From Deltaproteobacteria bacterium (GTDB taxonomy: Bacteria; Desulfobacterota; Desulfobulbia; Desulfobulbales; SURF-16), in NCBI GenBank assembly GCA_016219175.1, contig JACRCD010000039.1, positions 62,001-126,000 of the forward strand: a DNA stretch of 64,000 nucleotides. The letters run 5' to 3'. Positions 29,934 to 40,988 of this stretch are shown here, in pieces. How positions within the stretch are numbered: position 1 is the first letter of the stretch; each line of letters opens with the position of its first letter. The notes under the pieces are model-generated. The model ran no database searches. It had not been told where the DNA came from and saw nothing but the letters and a program-made list of their open reading frames with translations. The translations under genes and the position numbers were made by a program.

Positions 29934-31532
29934 CTACAGTATTATCATTCCCTGCTTCCAGAGATAACCGGCTGCCGCCACAATAATCGTCACCGAGACC
30001 AACAGGAGCACCCCCCAGACAATCTGCCAGACCTTTCGTTTTTGCACTTCGGGCTTCGTATAAATATTGGGAATGGCGCAGAGTACCGGCACGCCAAGAA
30101 ACGTTTCCAGTTCGGATGGATCCTTAAATGAGGTCCCCAAAAGTTCCAGCCCCAAGGCCAGCCCCCCGCCAATACCCAACCCTAACCCCACCGCCATCAA
30201 CATAATTTTCTTAAAATCAGGCTTGAAGGGCTTTTCCGGGAAATGCGCGGGGTCAACAATTTTAAATTGACTCCCTTTCTGGCGCTTTTCCAGGCTTTGC
30301 GCCGACTCTGCCTGCAGGCTCTGGCCCACCAACCCCTGATAGTGATTGCTCAACTGCTCATAATCCCTGGTCAAGGCTGCCCACTCAGCCTCCCGGACAG
30401 GAGCGGCCTCCACCCAGCCCTGATACCTGTCGATCTGTTTTCTTATCTCCGCCCGTTCTTGTTTCAGCCGGTCAATATTGAACTCCAGATTGTTCAGCTG
30501 CTGCTTCAGCTGTTCCAGCTGCGGATCAATGTATGGCTGATTTGCTGCCTTTTCCCCTTCGCCCTCCGGCGTGGATGTCTCTCCCTTCTGTCCCATTCCC
30601 GCGGCATGCTCCGCTTCAAGGTCCTCCAGAAGTTTTTTCACCCTCCGCACCTCGGGATGCTTGTCCGTATAACGGGCCTCAAGGCTTTGCAGCTCAGTGC
30701 GCAGCTGGCTGATCTGCGCCAGGGGCCCGCTTTGCTGCTGTGCGCCCTGCGGAACAGGAAGAATCGGGCTGAGACCCTGCAGCTGCTGACCCAGCAGCTC
30801 TTGCCGTAAAGAAATTTGCTCCTGAACCATGACCTTGGTCCGTTCCAGGTCCTGGGCGCTCACCTGATTATTCTGGTACTGTTCCTGCAGGGCATTGAGC
30901 CGGGTCATATTATTGGTGAGCTGAGCCGGCATTTCATTGTAATATTGCAGTTTATAGTCCCGCATCACCCCTTCTTTCTGGTCCAGAGCCTCCTTGGCCA
31001 TGCGCAGTTCATCCTGCACATAGGCTGAAGTTTCTGAGGCCCGCTCTTCCCGGTAGCGCAGGTTTTCTTCAATAAATTTAGCGGCAATGGCATTGGTCAC
31101 CCGCAGGACTTTTTTCGGATCTCCACCCTGATAGGAAACCTTGAAAATATCCCCTCTCTCCTGGCTGATTTCAATATGCTTGTCCCGCATGAGATCAACT
31201 ACATCCTCCATGGGAAGACTCGCGCGCAGATCGCTATAAAGATCAAACTCCTTGATCAACGCCTCAAGGCTGCTGCGGCTGGTGATCTGCTGGCTCACCG
31301 TGGCAACGACTTCCTGGGTTCGAGACCGGACATCATCGGGAGACATGGCGGTTGGATTAACCTGCTGCCGTTGATACTGAATGAGCGACAGGCATTGGTA
31401 GACCTTAGGCGTTTTCAGATAGACCCCCAAGCCTACAACGGCAGAGAGGAGAAGAAAAGAAACGACCAACTTCTTCCGCCGCAGGAAGATGTCTACATAC
31501 TTTTTAATAAGCTGTCGCTGTTGCTGATCCAT
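29934..31532 (-). CDS. Wzz/GumC-type polysaccharide chain-length determinant
   Basis: 532 residues. Transmembrane segments near the N-terminus (KLVVSFLLLSAVVGLGVYL) and C-terminus (about 450-470 and 505-525) flank a large periplasmic part. That part has long coiled coils (about 165-310 and 330-375) and the PVREAEWAALTRDYEQL region typical of this family. It acts with the tyrosine kinase downstream and the outer-membrane export protein. Similar to the exosortase-associated chain-length proteins (TIGR03007). Confidence 0.9.
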   Translation of the reverse strand: MDQQQRQLIKKYVDIFLRRKKLVVSFLLLSAVVGLGVYLKTPKVYQCLSLIQYQRQQVNPTAMSPDDVRSRTQEVVATVSQQITSRSSLEALIKEFDLYSDLRASLPMEDVVDLMRDKHIEISQERGDIFKVSYQGGDPKKVLRVTNAIAAKFIEENLRYREERASETSAYVQDELRMAKEALDQKEGVMRDYKLQYYNEMPAQLTNNMTRLNALQEQYQNNQVSAQDLERTKVMVQEQISLRQELLGQQLQGLSPILPVPQGAQQQSGPLAQISQLRTELQSLEARYTDKHPEVRRVKKLLEDLEAEHAAGMGQKGETSTPEGEGEKAANQPYIDPQLEQLKQQLNNLEFNIDRLKQERAEIRKQIDRYQGWVEAAPVREAEWAALTRDYEQLSNHYQGLVGQSLQAESAQSLEKRQKGSQFKIVDPAHFPEKPFKPDFKKIMLMAVGLGLGIGGGLALGLELLGTSFKDPSELETFLGVPVLCAIPNIYTKPEVQKRKVWQIVWGVLLLVSVTIIVAAAGYLWKQGMIIL

Positions 31533-31628
31533 GAAAATGTATTATTGAGATTTTTTTATACTGATTGATTAAATCGGAAACGGGCAAATATCATTCCCGT
31601 GAGCAAGCGTTCATAACGCTGGCGCTCG

Positions 31629-33107
31629 CTACCACCGTATGAGCTCTTTGGAGGCAGATAATTCCACCATCACCAGATGTTCGTCATAGCCTGGCACCAA
31701 GTCATTGCTGCTCAGAAGTTTTGAGAAAGTATAGCGGCAGGTCACGGCGAACCAGCGCATAAATGAATAGCTTATGGATGCGCCTGCCGAATAGTCGTCA
31801 AAATTTTCTTTGCTGCCGGCAAGCAGCCACAGGTAGCGTTTTTCATAGGAGGCATCCAGTGTGCCCGTTGTGTTTTCAAACAGCTCATAGGTCAGCCCCC
31901 CATCCACACCCCACGTTTCCCGGAGATCATCCCAGGAGCCATCTTTTTTCTGCCGGTCAAATAAAGTGCTTGCCCCAAAGGTAACGGACCCCCTCTGCAA
32001 ACGTTTTGCAAGGCCCGCGTTCAGGCCGAACCCGCTTTCATCGGCATTAAACTCCCTGGAGAGATAATTTCCCAGCAGAGCAGTAGTCAGCCGGGTTTCG
32101 GCGCTGAAATCATGATTCCATGCCAGTTCCCCTGTCTGGTCGGCAATATCCTCACTGCCCTCTGCCAGTCCGACAATATTGAGGTCGCCGTCCTGAAAAT
32201 TTGAATTGTCATAGCCGTAGGAAAGGGTAAGCTGGTCAGCGGGACTGACGGTGTAGCCAACGGTAAAAAGGGTATTATTTTCGCTCAGGTCGCTTTCGGA
32301 ATCGTACTGTCCCTTGGTGAATTCGTAGCTGACCGAGGTGAGCCATTGGGGGGTAAAGCGGTAGGAAAGACTGACGTGGGGAGAGTGCTCATAATATTCG
32401 CTGATGTCCGAGGAGCGGTCGTCATTGCTAAAATACCTATAGCCCAGGGTCAGGATGCTTTCCCTAGCAAACTCATACTCTGCCGCCACGGAAAACTCGT
32501 TGTCCCAATAACGTCTGCGTCCCTCCGTGTTTGACAGAAGGCGGTCAACTTCCCGCTGGACGATGGGCGAGGCCAGGGCATAACGCGGCCCCAGTTCCGT
32601 CAGGACCGAAAGATAGTCATCCGGGGTGTAATCAATTTCCGGAAAGAGCAAGCGGGCCACTTCCGCCTGCTCGTAAAGGCCTGAGCGACGAAAACGTTCC
32701 GTGATGCTCAGCGTTGGGTCCAGATCCGTACGGGGGGAATCATCATTATAGGAAAAGCTGTCGGACACCGTTACTTGCAAATACTGCGAAATTTCCCTGC
32801 TGCCGGAAAAAGACAGGCCATGACTGAAATCCCGTTGGTCGCGGCGTTGGTCCCAGCTCAGATCCGAATTGCCCACCAAGGTAAATTCATCCTTTTCCCC
32901 GGTGGAAACCAAGGTCAATACCGGCAGTGCTGTTGTCGTCCATTGACTTACCTCATCATGATCCAGCCGGAAAATATTGGAATTATATTCCTGCTGCAGG
33001 CCAATGCTGCCCGCCAGGCTGGTCTCCCGGCAACTGACCTGGTCAGGGCTGTAAAGCTGAAAACCGAACAATAAACTGCCGAGTACGATGAAATTTTTTC
33101 TATCCAC
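31629..33107 (-). CDS. Outer-membrane beta-barrel protein of the exopolysaccharide cluster
   Basis: 492 residues. A short N-terminal hydrophobic stretch (FIVLGSLLFGFQLY) is a weak signal peptide, followed by repeated amphipathic beta strands with aromatic ends (LSYRFTPQWLTSVSYEF, LTLSYGYDNSNF, CRYTFSKLLSSNDLVPGY). This fits a 14-18 strand barrel. The family resembles the uncharacterised exosortase-associated outer-membrane proteins (TIGR03016). It probably forms the outer-membrane pore or anchor for the polymer. No enzyme motif was seen. Confidence 0.8.
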   Translation of the reverse strand: MDRKNFIVLGSLLFGFQLYSPDQVSCRETSLAGSIGLQQEYNSNIFRLDHDEVSQWTTTALPVLTLVSTGEKDEFTLVGNSDLSWDQRRDQRDFSHGLSFSGSREISQYLQVTVSDSFSYNDDSPRTDLDPTLSITERFRRSGLYEQAEVARLLFPEIDYTPDDYLSVLTELGPRYALASPIVQREVDRLLSNTEGRRRYWDNEFSVAAEYEFARESILTLGYRYFSNDDRSSDISEYYEHSPHVSLSYRFTPQWLTSVSYEFTKGQYDSESDLSENNTLFTVGYTVSPADQLTLSYGYDNSNFQDGDLNIVGLAEGSEDIADQTGELAWNHDFSAETRLTTALLGNYLSREFNADESGFGLNAGLAKRLQRGSVTFGASTLFDRQKKDGSWDDLRETWGVDGGLTYELFENTTGTLDASYEKRYLWLLAGSKENFDDYSAGASISYSFMRWFAVTCRYTFSKLLSSNDLVPGYDEHLVMVELSASKELIRW

Positions 33108-33146
33108 TGTTCACGCCGCCGGTATAATTTGTTTTTTATGAAGTCT

Positions 33147-33743
33147 CTATGGGACAATAACGGTATCACCGGGGGCAATAATGATGTTCTGCTGCAGATT
33201 CTTCCCCTTGACAAAGGCATCATAATCAAAGTTTATGAATTCCTCTTTGCCGCCTTCCCGTCTCACCACCTTGATCTCTTCCTTCTTGGCCCATTCCTGA
33301 AAACCTCCGCTTCTGGCTATGGCCTGTAAAATCGTCAGGGGGAACTCTATGGGAAACTCGCCGGGCTGCCCGACCTGCCCGACAATATAATAGCGGCGGC
33401 TGCGGTTTTCCGCGAGAATGACCGAAACAGCCGGCTCGGTTACCAGTTCGGAAATTTTTTTCTCCAAAAATTTTTCAAGTTCACTTGGCGTTTTTCCCGC
33501 CGCCTGCACATCCCCGGCCAGTGGCAAGGAGATTTTGCCATCGAGCCGAACCTTGACCGTTCGCGACAGATCCGGTTCCTTCCAGACCTGGATCTCCAGA
33601 ACATCACCAACACCCAGCAAATAATCTTGTTCCATGTCGGCTGTTTGATCCGCCGTCAACACGGAAGGGAGGCTGAAGGCAAGAAATGCTACGAAATAAA
33701 CAACAAAAAAGAACATGCTCGCTTTAGTATTTCCCCTAATCAC
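33147..33743 (-). CDS. Periplasmic polysaccharide export protein (Wza-like, SLBB domain)
   Basis: About 198 residues from a GTG at 33743. That start is chosen because GGAGGAG lies five bases upstream, while longer and shorter ATG starts (33791, 33716) have no ribosome site. A signal peptide (FFFVVYFVAFLAFSLPSVLT) is followed by the polysaccharide export domain (YLLGVGDVLEIQVWKEPDLS) and an SLBB-like region (YYIVGQVGQPGEFPIEFPLT), ending in APGDTVIVP. No lipobox cysteine is present, unlike Wza. First gene of the exopolysaccharide operon. Confidence 0.9.
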   Translation of the reverse strand: MIRGNTKASMFFFVVYFVAFLAFSLPSVLTADQTADMEQDYLLGVGDVLEIQVWKEPDLSRTVKVRLDGKISLPLAGDVQAAGKTPSELEKFLEKKISELVTEPAVSVILAENRSRRYYIVGQVGQPGEFPIEFPLTILQAIARSGGFQEWAKKEEIKVVRREGGKEEFINFDYDAFVKGKNLQQNIIIAPGDTVIVP

Positions 33744-33788
33744 GGAACTCCTCCAGCATACGGTAAAGCCTTCTTGATAAAAAAAATT

Positions 33789-33808
33789 CATAACTTTTTT
33801 ATGTTATG
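33789..33808. promoter_or_regulatory. Inverted repeat before the exopolysaccharide operon
   Basis: CATAAC (33789-33794) and GTTATG (33803-33808) with an 8-base A/T spacer lie about 46 bases upstream of the export-protein GTG. A candidate operator in the promoter region; the regulator is unknown. Confidence 0.3.
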
Positions 33809-34361: not shown

Positions 34362-34844
34362 TCATGATTTTGCCGGGAAGAGTTTCCGGCACGGATCATA
34401 TTGATGAGGATCAAGAACAACTTGCACTGCAAGCTTTCTTTGGGAGTTCAACACAATCGGCCCTAAAAAATTTGCCGTCATCTCCAGTGGGTTTTCCTTA
34501 GGAATGGTCAGGATCAAAAGGATGTCCTTGTCGCTGTCTGAAGTTATCATCAGCTCCTTTAGCGATTGGCGCGGTATTTCCGGTTGATAATCCATGTTCA
34601 GGAGCGTGGCGGGAATAACAACGAAAGCCAGGTCCGGATTATCAAGGGACTGCAGCCACATCAACGGTGATTTCTTGCTGTGGGATTTTAAAATAAAACG
34701 TTTTGATTCGGGAAACCCCAGCAGGGGGCTGAGCATGCGAATAATTCGTTTCTCGTCGACCGAAATTTCACCAAACCTGCTGGTCTGCACCATGATGTTT
34801 TGTTCAGCTCCCGGCTGAACCATATCCTGTGGTAATGCGTTCAT
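34362..34844 (-). CDS. fliW: Flagellar assembly factor FliW
   Basis: 160 residues with FliW hallmarks: FGEISVDEKRIIRMLSPLLG, FPESKRFIL, LMWLQSLDNPDLAFVVI, LTIPKENPLEMTANFLGPIV and NSQRKLAVQVVL. It binds CsrA, and competes with flagellin for this, so that csrA-repressed flagellin mRNA is freed. It is 5 bases from csrA, the classical pair. Confidence 0.96.
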   Translation of the reverse strand: MNALPQDMVQPGAEQNIMVQTSRFGEISVDEKRIIRMLSPLLGFPESKRFILKSHSKKSPLMWLQSLDNPDLAFVVIPATLLNMDYQPEIPRQSLKELMITSDSDKDILLILTIPKENPLEMTANFLGPIVLNSQRKLAVQVVLDPHQYDPCRKLFPAKS

Positions 34845-35188: not shown

Positions 35189-37879
35189 CTACAAATAATC
35201 AACAAGGCTGAGTTGCATAGTCTTGGCCGCGGCACTCAGTGCGGCCTGGTAGGAAACTTCCAGGGCTTTAAGATTCAGTATGGCTTCGGTCAGGTCAGTG
35301 TCCTCTTTTTCCGAAAGATTTTCCTTGGTTGCCAGTTCCAGATTGCCATAAATCTGTTCCTGAATGGTGATGCGATTGGCCCTGGCGCCAAAATCCGCAA
35401 TCTGCGAGGAGAGAGAGGTCAGCACGTTGTCCAGATCCGCCAGGGACTTGGTCAGCCCCTGATTCTGCAGCTCAGCGGCATTAATACCCAAGGCGTTAAG
35501 GGTGTTGCTGTTGTCTGCGCCGACATTAAAGGTGTACCGAGACGGGTCCGAGCTGTCGATATGCAGGTGTCCGCTGGAGTCCCAGCTGCTTGTTAATCCG
35601 GGGATGCCGTTAATTTTCTGGGCTATTGTTTCCGGGGTGTCAAGGGTGATGTCCACGGCGATCTTCATCTCAACATCAAGAGGGGGATAGACATCGTGGT
35701 CTGTCACGGTGATGGTGAAATCGCCGCTCTGGAATTTTTCCTCCAGAGGGTCTTCCGGATCATTGAGGGTCTCCAGAGGCACATAAATGTTGTCCTGGGC
35801 GTGGATGCTGCTGACAAAGGTGAAATTCTGGCCCCGCAGATAGTCCTCAATCTCCTTGAGAACTTGGAAAGCGCCCGTGTTGGAGACGGCATCCTCGCCG
35901 TTCTTGGCGACTTCGATAGCGCTTTTGGCCCCGACCTTTATCTCGGCATCGTTGTCCCGGTCCCCGGCATAGCGGACGTTGTTTTCAAGACGGGCGATGG
36001 AGAGCACGGATAGTTTTCCGTCAGCGGCCACATCGGTTGCCTCACGCGTAGAAGCTGATCCTCCTGAAAGACCTATGGCGGCGAGTCCCGGCTCCTCGCC
36101 TCCGGGAGGATAGGCGGAGGTGAGACTGCTTTCCAGCATGAAGGTGCGGTCGGAGAGTAGCTGGATCTTGCCGGAGTAAACCCTGTCCGCCGTGCCGGTT
36201 GGCGGAGCGCCATTCAGATGGGTGATGGAATTTCCCGTGGCGGTCGTCTGGACATGGAGATTGCGGCCGTCTATGGCCTTGAGGCCGATGTTGCCGGCGG
36301 AAGTACGGGTTGCCACCACGCCGGTGGCTGCCTGCTGAGCATTGATGGCGTTGAGCAGCACATTATCGGCATCACCGGCAACAACGGCTGTCGGCCCCAA
36401 GGCGGCAAAGATGTCGATGCCATTGATCAGCAAATCTCCGCTGTCAATGGTGCCGGCCGAAGCCGCCACGGGAGCCTGCCGGAATACGGGGGTCACTTCC
36501 GCGGTTACCCCTGTGCCGGGCACGGTCTGGCCGCCGGGATTTACCCAATCCTGGGAGATGCTGTTAATGGCAGCGGCTTTGGCCGCGGCGGATGAAGAGG
36601 CAAAGACATCTGAAACGCCATCCGAGGTGATGGTGTCCACGGAGATGCCGTTGATTTCCAAATCCCCCGGGGCAAGGCGATAGCCGTAAACCAGGAGGCC
36701 ATCGTTTGCCTCATCGGCTGCGCCGACCCCTCCCCCTCCCAGGCCGAGAAGGTCCAGGACCGTATCGTCGGTGTAGTTGGTGCTGCTGAGCTCAAACGGT
36801 TCTGTTGACTGCAGCGAAATTCTGCCGGTGTTGCTTGCCGCCCCCAGGGCATGGGCCCCCACAGCCAGCCCGGATGCGGCTGCCGGCGGGCCGGCGGGAT
36901 TAGCGGTCTCGGTAAGGGCGGTGATGTCTATGGCGGACTCGTCGCCCGCCATGGCATTTGTCAGAATAACGGTGCCGGCCGCGCCGCCGTTCGTGCCATC
37001 GCCCAGCACGGCTTGCACCCCGGTCTGGCCCGTATACTGGTTTAAGGCGGTAACCGCGTCCGCGGCCGGTGTGACCCCGGCTGTCGTGTAGTTGATGGTA
37101 ACGCCGTTCAGGGTGATGCTGACATCGGTCGGGTTGGCGCTTGCCGTTTCCGCGCCCCCGGCATAGAGGGTTGTCAGGGTTGCGGTAACCGGAGTTGTGC
37201 CGGGGGGCCAGACAATATTGTTGATGGCGGTCTTCAGGTTGTCCCCCCCGCTCATATTCAGCCCGAAGCTGGTACCCGCGCTCAGCACGACTGCCCCCGC
37301 ATCTTCACCATTGATCAGCAGATCACCGGCGGCAAGATCCGTCGTGCCCACCGTGCCGGAGAGCATGGATTCAAGAACGGGAAAACTGGCGCCGTTGATG
37401 CGGTAGCCGTCAATATAGCCAAGCATGAAAGGCGTGGGTTCCGTTGCCGTATAGCCCGTGGTTCTATAACCGCCGAAGACATATTTCCCGTCCCAGCGCG
37501 TATTGGCCAAGGTTACGGCCTGTTCAAGATAAAGATGTATCTCATCGGCCACATATGTTCGTGTTGTTGGGTTCTGGCTGTCGTTGATGGCGATCAGGGT
37601 CTGGCTCTTGCTGTTTGTGATCAGTTGCTTTATGCCGGTGAGCGCTTCCTCGGAGGCGGCGATCATGGATCCGCCAAAAGAGATATTTGACTTATACTGA
37701 ACTATTTCAGCCAGTGTCGAACGCATGCCCAGGGCGCTGATTAAATTGACGGGATCATCGGAGATCTTTGACATCTGCTTGCCGGAAGAGATCTGGCTGT
37801 TGATTTTCCACATTTCATTTGTAATCTTGTTCAGATTGCTGCCGATCATACTGTAGATGGTATTAAGGGTCGTTCGCAT
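35189..37879 (-). CDS. flgL: Hook-filament junction protein FlgL with a very large insert
   Basis: 896 residues, two to three times a usual FlgL. Conserved flagellin-like ends are present: MRTTLNTIYSMIGSNLNKIT with SSGKQMSKISDDP at the N-terminus, and NLSEKEDTDLTEAILNLKAL with YQAALSAAAKTMQLSLVDYL at the C-terminus. The centre (about 180-640) is made of repeated Flagellin_IN-like modules, each opening with GDL-(I/L)ING (about 185, 405 and 481). One module (about 182-398) clearly resembles FlgK residues 357-588. The insert should face the outside of the junction. The frame is open throughout, so no frameshift is needed. One base separates it from flgK. Confidence 0.93.
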   Translation of the reverse strand: MRTTLNTIYSMIGSNLNKITNEMWKINSQISSGKQMSKISDDPVNLISALGMRSTLAEIVQYKSNISFGGSMIAASEEALTGIKQLITNSKSQTLIAINDSQNPTTRTYVADEIHLYLEQAVTLANTRWDGKYVFGGYRTTGYTATEPTPFMLGYIDGYRINGASFPVLESMLSGTVGTTDLAAGDLLINGEDAGAVVLSAGTSFGLNMSGGDNLKTAINNIVWPPGTTPVTATLTTLYAGGAETASANPTDVSITLNGVTINYTTAGVTPAADAVTALNQYTGQTGVQAVLGDGTNGGAAGTVILTNAMAGDESAIDITALTETANPAGPPAAASGLAVGAHALGAASNTGRISLQSTEPFELSSTNYTDDTVLDLLGLGGGGVGAADEANDGLLVYGYRLAPGDLEINGISVDTITSDGVSDVFASSSAAAKAAAINSISQDWVNPGGQTVPGTGVTAEVTPVFRQAPVAASAGTIDSGDLLINGIDIFAALGPTAVVAGDADNVLLNAINAQQAATGVVATRTSAGNIGLKAIDGRNLHVQTTATGNSITHLNGAPPTGTADRVYSGKIQLLSDRTFMLESSLTSAYPPGGEEPGLAAIGLSGGSASTREATDVAADGKLSVLSIARLENNVRYAGDRDNDAEIKVGAKSAIEVAKNGEDAVSNTGAFQVLKEIEDYLRGQNFTFVSSIHAQDNIYVPLETLNDPEDPLEEKFQSGDFTITVTDHDVYPPLDVEMKIAVDITLDTPETIAQKINGIPGLTSSWDSSGHLHIDSSDPSRYTFNVGADNSNTLNALGINAAELQNQGLTKSLADLDNVLTSLSSQIADFGARANRITIQEQIYGNLELATKENLSEKEDTDLTEAILNLKALEVSYQAALSAAAKTMQLSLVDYL

Positions 37880-37880
37880 A

Positions 37881-40409
37881 TCACACCGCCTGCAGCAAAG
37901 TCTGCATCATCTCATCAGCAGAGGTTATCAGCTTGGCTGCTGCGGAATAAGCCTGCTGAAATTTGATCAGATCCGCCATCTCCTCATCAAGGGAAACTCC
38001 GGACGTGGCGTCACGCATGGCGTTCATCTGATCGGTAATGAGCGTATTGTATTCATAGTCCCTGTCGACCGTGCGGCCTTTTAAGCCGATATCGCCAACC
38101 AGGGTGTTATAGAAGCCGCCAAGGGTGTCGGATTTTCCCCCGGTGAAACGGACGTATTCGTTGCTTTGAATATTCGTGATCAGCAGGGCATTGGCTTGGT
38201 CACCCCGGAATATTTCGCCGATGGTGCTGACTTGCCCAGCGGCGATATACTCAACGTTTTGCTCAACGACTCCGTTAATACCGATGGAGTCGGCGCTGGA
38301 GCCGGAAAAAAATGTGTTAATTCCTGCTGTGGCAAGAAAATTTGAGGTGTCGCCGCCAAAGGCAAACTGGTGATCGGCGTCAGGGGTCAACACCAGTTTG
38401 TTATCCTTGATGCTGGCATTGAGCCAGGGGGTGGCCTCGCCACTGGCGTTGATAATGGAAATATTAATGGAATCGGCAACATCCTGCAGACTGTAGGCCC
38501 TTTCCAGAGACACTTCCACGGCTTGGGGCAGCGCCAGGGTATCATCGTTATTATAGAGCCAGATTTTAAAACTGCCGCCATCGGTCCGCAGTTCGTCGGA
38601 ATAGTCAAACCCCTGCATTGCAAACAGAACCTGGTTGTCCGTGGCCTCAAAGATGAGCTGCCCGTCACCGCCTTCATCCGTGCTGCTTCTGCTTCCACCG
38701 CCAAGTCCAAGCTGATCAAGGTAGAGATCGTCGACACCGGCATTGATATTGATGGAGTCTTTGTGGCTGAAGAGGGAAAGTTCGCCGGTATTATGGTCCG
38801 CATCCGCCACATAGGTGCCACTGGTCAGGCCCAGTTTGGTCTCTGACAGGAGAGGATCGGAGTCAATGCCGCTAATGATGATGCGTGACTCGTCCCCGGC
38901 GTTGGTGTTGCGCAGAATAATGGAATTGGCTGCTCCGCCGTTGTTGCCGTCGCCCACAGCAGCCTCAATGGTAATCTTGGGGATATTTTCGGGGACAGTG
39001 GTTGGATCGTTGTAGTCGTCAATCGCCTGATTGATGGCGGCCACCACGTTAGCGGCCAATGTCGCCGGATCCGTATCATCAGGAGGTCCTGAGGTGGAAT
39101 CAACAGTATAGCTGACATCAATGCCGTTAATTTGCAAGGTGATGACATTGCCATCCTCGCCTGCGCCCATGGCTGCCACCGCATCACCGGCAACCTGGGT
39201 GGTAAGTCTGGCCCGCACGCCGGTGATGGCCTCATTAATGGCCTGGGCGGTATTGTAGGTTTTGATATTGGCCAGACCAAATCGCGCCGTGGCCCCTTCA
39301 ATTTTGCCAATTTCCCTGTCATTAATCAGGAGGCGGCCGGCCTGGATGGTGTCTGTGGATGTGGCTGCATCTATTGTGCTGGTGAGAAGCGCGGTATTTT
39401 GCGCGGCGTCGTTGCTGGTCAGCTGCTCGGAAAAGCGGGTCAAACCTGCTCCCTGGCTGTGCTGCTGATTCACCTCCCGGATCAGGGCATTTGCCAAGGC
39501 ATCCAGACGGCCGAGATAATTTTCAGGGGTATCGGGATCGATGTTGCTGTAAATTTCCATCCAGCCGCCGATCTTACCGCCTATGGCCTCGCTTTCCGTC
39601 AGAGCGGCCGTCTTGAGGACATCGCCCTTGGAATTTTTGCTTATCCATTGCAGCTTGTCGTCAAGCAAGTCGATTTGCCAGTTTTCATCGTTTTCCACCA
39701 GGGTATGACCGTCACCCATGAGCACCGAATAGGCGCCGGTGTTCGTCTCAAAATAGTTGACCTCCAGATACTGGGACAGATCATTGAGCAGCAAATCACG
39801 CTGGTCCCGCAGGTCATTCTGCTGACGCACATCGGTCTCTGAAGCGGTGATTTTTACGTTCATCGCGGCGATCTGGCTTGTGAGCATATTGACGTCGGCA
39901 ACAGCGGCGTTGAGGCTGCTGTTGATGTCAAAACGGGTCCGGGTTATTTCGGCGGCCATGCTGTTTAACTGATCGATAACGATTTTGGCCTTCTGTACCG
40001 CCGCACCACGGGCGGAAATATTTTCCGGATAGCTGGAAAGTGTCTGCCAGCTTGCCCAGAATTCACTCATCAGCTCGTTGACGGCAAGGCCGGGGGCTTC
40101 ATTGAAAGAGGTTTCCACCAACCGCATTGATTCCTGCTGGGCCTGCAGATTGCTGAGCGAGGAGTTCTGGTCAGACATTCTTTTGACCATGAATTGATCG
40201 TAATGGCGGTTAATCTTCAGACTCTGCACGCCATTGCCGAAAAAACCCGAGGCATCAGGCGTGGGAATTGCCGGCGTCAGAGCAAGGGATTGCCTGGTGT
40301 AGCCCGGGGTATCCACATTGGCGATATTATGGCCTACCACGGAAACGGATTGCTGGTGGGAAAGCAGGGCCTCCTTGGCAGTGTTTAATATCTGGGAAAT
40401 ACCGATCAT
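37881..40409 (-). CDS. flgK: Hook-filament junction protein FlgK with a shared insert
   Basis: 842 residues (typical FlgK about 450-650). Conserved N-terminus GHNIANVDTPGYTRQSLALT and C-terminal block GVSLDEEMADLIKFQQAYSA are intact, as are LRDQRDLLLNDLSQYLEV and the FFSGSSADSIGING region. An extra module at about 357-588 begins AGRLLINDREIGKIEG, contains GDGNNGGAANSIILRNTNAG, and ends near GDGQLIFEA. It aligns with the FlgL module at 182-398. Exported by the flagellar system; joins hook to FlgL. Confidence 0.95.
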   Translation of the reverse strand: MIGISQILNTAKEALLSHQQSVSVVGHNIANVDTPGYTRQSLALTPAIPTPDASGFFGNGVQSLKINRHYDQFMVKRMSDQNSSLSNLQAQQESMRLVETSFNEAPGLAVNELMSEFWASWQTLSSYPENISARGAAVQKAKIVIDQLNSMAAEITRTRFDINSSLNAAVADVNMLTSQIAAMNVKITASETDVRQQNDLRDQRDLLLNDLSQYLEVNYFETNTGAYSVLMGDGHTLVENDENWQIDLLDDKLQWISKNSKGDVLKTAALTESEAIGGKIGGWMEIYSNIDPDTPENYLGRLDALANALIREVNQQHSQGAGLTRFSEQLTSNDAAQNTALLTSTIDAATSTDTIQAGRLLINDREIGKIEGATARFGLANIKTYNTAQAINEAITGVRARLTTQVAGDAVAAMGAGEDGNVITLQINGIDVSYTVDSTSGPPDDTDPATLAANVVAAINQAIDDYNDPTTVPENIPKITIEAAVGDGNNGGAANSIILRNTNAGDESRIIISGIDSDPLLSETKLGLTSGTYVADADHNTGELSLFSHKDSININAGVDDLYLDQLGLGGGSRSSTDEGGDGQLIFEATDNQVLFAMQGFDYSDELRTDGGSFKIWLYNNDDTLALPQAVEVSLERAYSLQDVADSINISIINASGEATPWLNASIKDNKLVLTPDADHQFAFGGDTSNFLATAGINTFFSGSSADSIGINGVVEQNVEYIAAGQVSTIGEIFRGDQANALLITNIQSNEYVRFTGGKSDTLGGFYNTLVGDIGLKGRTVDRDYEYNTLITDQMNAMRDATSGVSLDEEMADLIKFQQAYSAAAKLITSADEMMQTLLQAV

Positions 40410-40415
40410 TGTTGT

Positions 40416-40988
40416 TTAAACCTCTCTGCTGACGAGGGCAGGGGCGCCGCTTTTTCTTCTGCTCTGTCCGCGTGTCGTGTAAAGCCGGCTACTGGAGATG
40501 TCACCGCAAATAACTGAAATGGCATCGTTAATATAACCAAGGGTATCACTGGCGAAGCGTTTGTTGATGAGGTTGTTGTCGCTGATTTTTTCCCGCAGAG
40601 ACGCCAACTCGTCCCGGTACTGTTTTACGGCCAGTGTCTGCTCGCGGGTCATGAAAGGAATCAGTTCGGCAAGTTTGATCAGTCTCGTGGCATTTTTGGC
40701 GTCGGTTATGACAATGCGTCTGGCGACCTCCTGCAGGGAATGGTCAAGCTGGGCCATTTTGGCAAGCTCGCTTTCTTTTTTTCGGGTCAGGGGAATAAGG
40801 GAGTTTAAGTCCATGTTGATCAGGGCGGTTTTTTCCGCTTCCAGAATGGCCAGGAAACCTGTTGATATGACGATCTGTCGTTTGAGAATATCCAGAATCA
40901 AGGGCAGGGGAATAGCCTGAGTGGTCTGTCCGAACACATCCGGAGCTAGGGCCTGGGCATCACTTATTAGTGCTGTTCGCGTTTTCAT
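40416..40988 (-). CDS. flgN: Flagellar export chaperone FlgN
   Basis: 190 residues, mostly helical, with the FlgN pattern (LPLILDILKRQIVISTGFLA, LDHSLQEVARRIVI, LAVKQYRDELASLREKI, NDAISVICGD). It is a cytoplasmic chaperone for FlgK and FlgL, which lie directly downstream. Its ATG overlaps the flgJ stop as ATGA. Recognition rests on helix pattern and position, since FlgN is poorly conserved. Confidence 0.85.
   Translation of the reverse strand: MKTRTALISDAQALAPDVFGQTTQAIPLPLILDILKRQIVISTGFLAILEAEKTALINMDLNSLIPLTRKKESELAKMAQLDHSLQEVARRIVITDAKNATRLIKLAELIPFMTREQTLAVKQYRDELASLREKISDNNLINKRFASDTLGYINDAISVICGDISSSRLYTTRGQSRRKSGAPALVSREV

Follow-up and report, generated by a model that had tools for sequence, protein, structure and literature searches.

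FlgK and FlgL, encoded by adjacent genes in the window (the whole stretch of 64,000 nucleotides that was analysed), carry one homologous module of about 212 residues. This shared module consists of a domain of known kind, is found throughout the order to which the window organism belongs, and is old. It is best read as a relative, specific to this lineage, of the flagellin outer domain (D2/D3). Three elements of this pattern go beyond the initial annotation: a second, diverged copy of the module within FlgL, another flgK-flgL pair elsewhere in the genome, and a family-wide pattern of occurrence.

Carriers and limits of the module

The genes and module copies on which the analysis rests are the following.

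34362..34844, minus strand: fliW, downstream of flgL (PF02623, E 1e-34)
35189..37879, minus strand: flgL, 896 aa, with flagellin-type N and C helices flanking two module copies
36011..36676, minus strand: FlgL inner module copy, residues 402-623, flagellin D2/D3-like (profile 160.6 bits, model positions 1-210 of 212)
36686..37336, minus strand: FlgL outer module copy, residues 182-398 (profile 199.5 bits, model positions 1-212 of 212)
37881..40409, minus strand: flgK, 842 aa
38649..39347, minus strand: FlgK module, residues 355-587 (profile 230 bits, model positions 1-212 of 212)
40416..40988, minus strand: flgN, FlgK/FlgL export chaperone gene, upstream of flgK (PF05130, E 3.6e-17)

The flgL product matched the FlgL equivalog model TIGR02550 at E 6.1e-51 (174 bits against a cut-off of 127.2), with PF00669 (E 4.5e-14) and PF00700 (E 1.3e-5) recognised at its ends. 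The flgK product was identified as FlgK by TIGR02492 (E 1.3e-96; 324.6 bits against a cut-off of 170.75), and its D1 helical domain matched FlgK_D1 (PF22638) at E 6.1e-48. The flagellar cluster around the two genes encodes FliW, FlgM, FlgN, a rod-binding protein and FlgI, and adjoining it at 29934-33791 are genes that resemble, on sequence alone, those for polysaccharide chain-length, outer-membrane beta-barrel and SLBB-type export proteins.

The second flgK-flgL pair of the window genome lies on another contig and has an identical layout. The two FlgK modules of this genome are 57% identical, in comparison to about 40% between FlgK and FlgL modules. At locus L138 (contig C23 of the same genome) a second axial gene set comprises FliD-like, FlgE (926 aa), FlgD-like, FlgK (827 aa) and FlgL (897 aa) genes, with a sigma-factor-like gene downstream; the gene content suggests a second flagellum. 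Two flagellins were observed in this genome, one of 805 aa (L136:4578-6992) and one of about 283-303 aa (L137:4293-5141), and in many relatives the long flagellin is likewise accompanied by a short one of about 290 aa.

The initial annotation had proposed that inserts at about residues 182-398 of FlgL and 357-588 of FlgK align along their length, and this was upheld end to end. BLASTP aligned FlgL 168-398 with FlgK 341-587 at 35% identity (E 9e-22), and an iterated profile placed the limits at nearly the same positions, 182-398 in FlgL and 355-587 in FlgK. Small residues are abundant in the module region, and a chance similarity between Ala/Gly/Thr-rich sequences was named at the outset as the outcome that would undo the proposal. 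The two inserts aligned with a score of 269. Scores for 1000 full shuffles averaged 52 (s.d. 9) and reached 101 at most, and those for 1000 shuffles within ten-residue blocks, which retain the local Ala/Gly/Thr content, did not exceed 99. These shuffles rule out low complexity as the source of the match; taken with the profile search and with motifs common to 40 FlgK-FlgL pairs, they leave the chance reading with practically no credence. Motifs are conserved throughout the module copies, amounting to 14 invariant columns.

Profile comparison with solved structures indicated what kind of domain this is. The family profile of the FlgL inner copies (A4) matched the outer domain of Helicobacter pylori FlaA (9ygu, residues 191-382) at E 1.7e-18, followed by Campylobacter jejuni FlaA (2.8e-14) and H. 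pylori FlaB (1.2e-13), so that by sequence profile the inner copies match a solved flagellin outer domain. The outer-type and FlgK profile (A1) had no match in the PDB to E 5, and the FlgK module alone returned nothing useful from Pfam, NCBIfam or the PDB. The outer and inner families nevertheless match one another (probability 98.7, E 3.2e-16). The FlgK copy, linked to flagellins only via the inner copies and weak matches to large flagellins, is thus to be regarded as a relative and not a member of the flagellin outer domain.

Related domains were also seen in FliC, FliD and FlgE, and a stretch at about 218-319 of the window genome's 805-aa flagellin is related as well. Pfam Flagellin_IN (PF07196) gave weak matches in 7 of 22 module copies; window FlgL scored 19.7 bits, below the cut-off of 22.7, and the window FlgK module had no match to this family. 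A fold search with the AlphaFold2 model of FlgK (pLDDT mostly 77-95 in the module region) returned Salmonella and Campylobacter FlgK first, followed by flagellins with large outer domains. Flagellins were at the top for the FlgL model, which is of low confidence (pLDDT 69) and too poor for reading domain contacts.

Distribution and history of the module

A survey of 146 genomes of the window organism's order, with FlgK length classes tallied from the resulting table, separated a long FlgK class of 68 genomes (about 813-991 aa when complete) from a short class of 39 genomes in families f3, f11 and f12 (about 435-564 aa when complete). All 68 long-class genomes carry the module, and at least one copy was present in FlgL in each of the 40 long-class FlgK-FlgL pairs examined. 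None of the 39 short-class genomes has it in FlgK or FlgL. Their FlgL measures about 295-360 aa, except in genus g41, where it is 554-556 aa and the one example inspected was without the module. Two hits in the short class both fell in the hook protein, FlgE there carrying a related module (62-70 bits) in proteins of 632 and 695 aa (L117:1986-3881 and L118:1465-3549). A module confined to this flagellum is ruled out by the order-wide presence.

FlgE splits in the same manner, being mostly 781-1082 aa in the long class versus 422-569 aa in the short class. Two discrete FlgE-FlgK-FlgL sets therefore exist in one order, of about 450/490/330 aa (f3, f11 and f12) versus 820/850/650 aa or more, and this suggests that the whole axial set was replaced within the order rather than having grown gradually. 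Outside the order, a sample of the phylum contained no full-length module match; the weak partial matches inspected were mostly to large flagellins of 761-1161 aa, plus one FliD. The nearest named database records to the module proteins were mostly from Desulfobulbaceae and deltaproteobacterial metagenome assemblies, which makes Desulfobulbales the probable identity of the order.

The number of copies varies widely in FlgL. Proteins of about 620-690 aa have one copy, those of about 870-940 aa two, those of about 1100 aa three, and those of about 1240-1480 aa four to about five. In three-copy FlgL the extra module is nested inside the last copy, giving model positions 1-66, a full 1-212 and then 64-210 in succession. 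FlgK has one or two copies, the second of which is without the first 50 or so model positions. Genus g35 alone spans one to four FlgL copies, as judged from frame length, and the one-or-more-copies state changes 15 times on the FlgK tree.

The module was also found in three large adhesin-like proteins from three other families of the order (L082:3828-9527, L083:2552-9973 and L116:1-3834). The two complete carriers have a DUF4347 N-terminal region, one of them also having FG-GAP and cadherin-like repeats, and HlyD-type genes lie downstream of L116; these domains and neighbours point to putative secreted adhesins. When the flanks of the module in L082 and L083 are joined without it, they form a repeat unit found elsewhere in the same protein, which indicates a clean domain insertion, and the junctions in L116 are identical. 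The description of a surface module in the initial annotation is in keeping with these insertions, in which the module behaves as a portable unit. In genome G006 (assembly 91% complete) an adhesin-borne module was present together with flagellin and FlgE matches, and a FlgK match was absent.

A tree of 84 module copies from FlgK, FlgL, FliC, hook and adhesin-like proteins separated the FlgL inner copies, together with one flagellin (FliC) copy, from the rest (support 100/99). The FlgK, FlgL outer and adhesin copies fell on a single branch (98/96), with the hook-protein copies outside it, and the main FlgK module formed one clade (100/99) nested among the FlgL outer copies. Constraining all FlgL copies to one clade cost 103.5 log-likelihood units and was rejected (p-AU 2.4e-6). 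The FlgK module is closer to the FlgL outer copies than these are to the FlgL inner copies, a topology that supports an ancient passage of the module between FlgL and FlgK, much as the initial annotation had supposed in proposing a transfer. FlgL to FlgK would be the simplest direction if the root, which is assumed here, lies on the flagellin side.

This event appears to be far from recent. FlgK copies group with those of other genera and in no case with the FlgL copy from their own genome, the sole exception to the lack of near-neighbour FlgK/FlgL pairing being second FlgK copies that associate loosely with a few FlgL copies. Copies thus group by protein and not by genome, and recent gene conversion between the adjacent flgK and flgL genes is ruled out. 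The second FlgK copy was placed apart from the main FlgK clade, hinting at two separate origins; a single FlgK clade was not rejected (p-AU 0.25) and separate origins are not claimed.

Alternatively, flagellin or the hook protein may have been the source from which FlgK and FlgL separately acquired their related outer domains, with no exchange between the two. The occurrence of related domains in FliC, FliD and FlgE would suit such a history, as would the p-AU value for a single origin of all FlgK copies. However, FlgE, FliC and the inner FlgL copy all fall outside the branch on which FlgK joins the outer FlgL copies, and we regard independent gain as very unlikely.

FlgL length, flagellin length and the role of the module

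FlgL length was compared with that of the longest complete flagellin in 47 long-class genomes with complete frames, using the longest flagellin where there were several and checking for truncations. The two lengths were correlated in these module-bearing genomes (Spearman 0.72, p 1.4e-8, n=47) in an analysis that was chosen after the tables were seen. The correlation was 0.81 for genus medians (n=22) and 0.78 within genus g35 (n=15), and independent contrasts on the FlgK D1 tree gave r 0.65 (p 8e-7). Among phylogenetically independent pairs there was none in which flagellin changed in the direction opposite to FlgL, although few pairs were informative and the supported-branch test had a median p of 0.06. 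Other length correlations were lower, at 0.31 for FlgK-flagellin, 0.20 for FlgE-flagellin, 0.23 for FlgE-FlgL and 0.12 for FlgK-FlgL. The outer-type module was not found in the sampled flagellins, so the size correlation does not reflect simple copying of one module into both proteins.

This link does not extend to a general rule, as it fails elsewhere in the phylum (rho 0.24, 61 genomes) and was 0.11 in short-class genomes (35). Several flagellins of 800-1125 aa occur beside FlgL of 300-400 aa outside the module-bearing group, indicating that FlgL bulk is unnecessary for a large filament.

In the Salmonella junction a single protofilament runs through FlgE, FlgK, FlgL and FliC, their D2 domains being exposed, and 11 FlgK and 11 FlgL subunits form a junction that buffers mechanical stress (PMC12221982). 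Within the module-bearing group, FlgL that follows flagellin and is nearly uncoupled from FlgK points to structural matching with the filament, and the FlgL-flagellin size link speaks for an outer layer of the junction that is matched in size. On balance it is probable that the modules are flagellin-type outer domains forming this outer layer, with FlgL bulk fitted to the filament. A flagellin-type outer domain would have been duplicated within FlgL in an ancestor of much of the order, and an outer-type copy would then also have come to reside in FlgK, most simply by passage from FlgL. FlgK and FlgL form stacked rings of 11 subunits with exposed outer domains, FlgL sitting directly beneath flagellin in each protofilament. 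The modules may pack side by side and against the adjacent ring to make up the outer layer, the FlgK module providing the layer below, and copies would be gained or lost in FlgL to match its bulk to the outer domains of the overlying filament. The packing of the modules, the direction of transfer and any mechanical role are what we infer from these patterns. The idea can be taken further, with FlgL of this order as a size adapter in which flagellin-type outer domains are nested in an array, the number of copies evolving along with flagellin, and with a portable module that is also found in FlgK and adhesin-like proteins; we hold this fuller version tentatively, at somewhat below even chances.

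Neutral domain drift is a serious rival to the outer-layer model, given the pattern outside the module-bearing group. Channel export may tolerate extra outer domains that tandem duplication adds and removes without functional consequence, and both the frequent changes in copy number, including the range within g35, and the large flagellins that accompany small FlgL elsewhere can be interpreted in this manner. A correlation specific to FlgL and flagellin, seen within a genus and in contrasts, is less readily accommodated, as are the motifs and invariant columns conserved in every copy, and drift is considered unlikely as the full explanation. The initial annotation suggested an adhesive or docking collar, and the modules might otherwise constitute such a putative structure at the junction, with exposed domains for binding to a partner cell, a sheath or a surface. 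The clean insertion of the same module in three adhesin-like proteins, one with HlyD-type genes beside it, shows that it can work off the flagellar axis. The size coupling of FlgK and FlgL expected of a joint collar is absent, FlgL following flagellin instead; no recognised binding domain was found, Pfam giving weak Flagellin_IN matches only; and just 11 copies per ring would be exposed on each flagellum (PMC12221982). A collar is accordingly judged improbable, slightly more so than drift.

Comparison with known axial proteins

The D2/D3 domains of Helicobacter FlaA and FlaB and of Campylobacter FlaA (PDB 9ygu, 9yh1 and 6x80) are matched by the FlgL inner copy in both profile and fold searches. 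In comparison to those flagellins, the domain here resides in FlgL and also in FlgK, there as a diverged outer type whose profile is without a PDB match. Flagellin_IN spans 55 positions in comparison to the 212 of the module.

Among published systems, the Domain-Extension (DE) region of giant flagellins comes nearest, being a tandem-duplicated repeat domain with a later insertion between the copies (Thomson et al. 2018, PMC6248924). DE region matches were reported in Pseudomonas, Legionella, Campylobacter and Helicobacter flagellins, with none outside annotated flagellins (PMC6248924). The same duplication and interruption enlarges an axial protein in both cases, the arrays lying here in FlgL and FlgK; judged by its published description, the DE region may be the same domain as our module.

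Enlarged junction proteins are also known from Campylobacter, where FlgL is large (750-950 aa) and FlgK divergent, and from Burkholderia, whose FlgK D3 resembles its D2, according to the portions of the account drawn on here (PMC5691160). Those portions share with our system the enlargement of junction proteins, a D3 with the D2 fold in one FlgK, and the idea of one ring altered to suit its neighbour, but unlike our system they describe no module common to FlgK and FlgL (PMC5691160). No description of such a common module was found in the open-licence papers searched.

In summary, a domain has been shown to have moved among axial proteins and a protein outside the flagellum. The variable nested FlgL array and its tie to flagellin size are new and testable, and related species with one to about five FlgL modules provide a natural series for examining how the junction is fitted to the filament. 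Outer-domain arrays are known in flagellins, and junction proteins have usually been treated as fixed parts; here the size of FlgL, the junction protein adjoining the filament, changes in units of a whole module and tracks that of flagellin, but not that of the hook or of FlgK.
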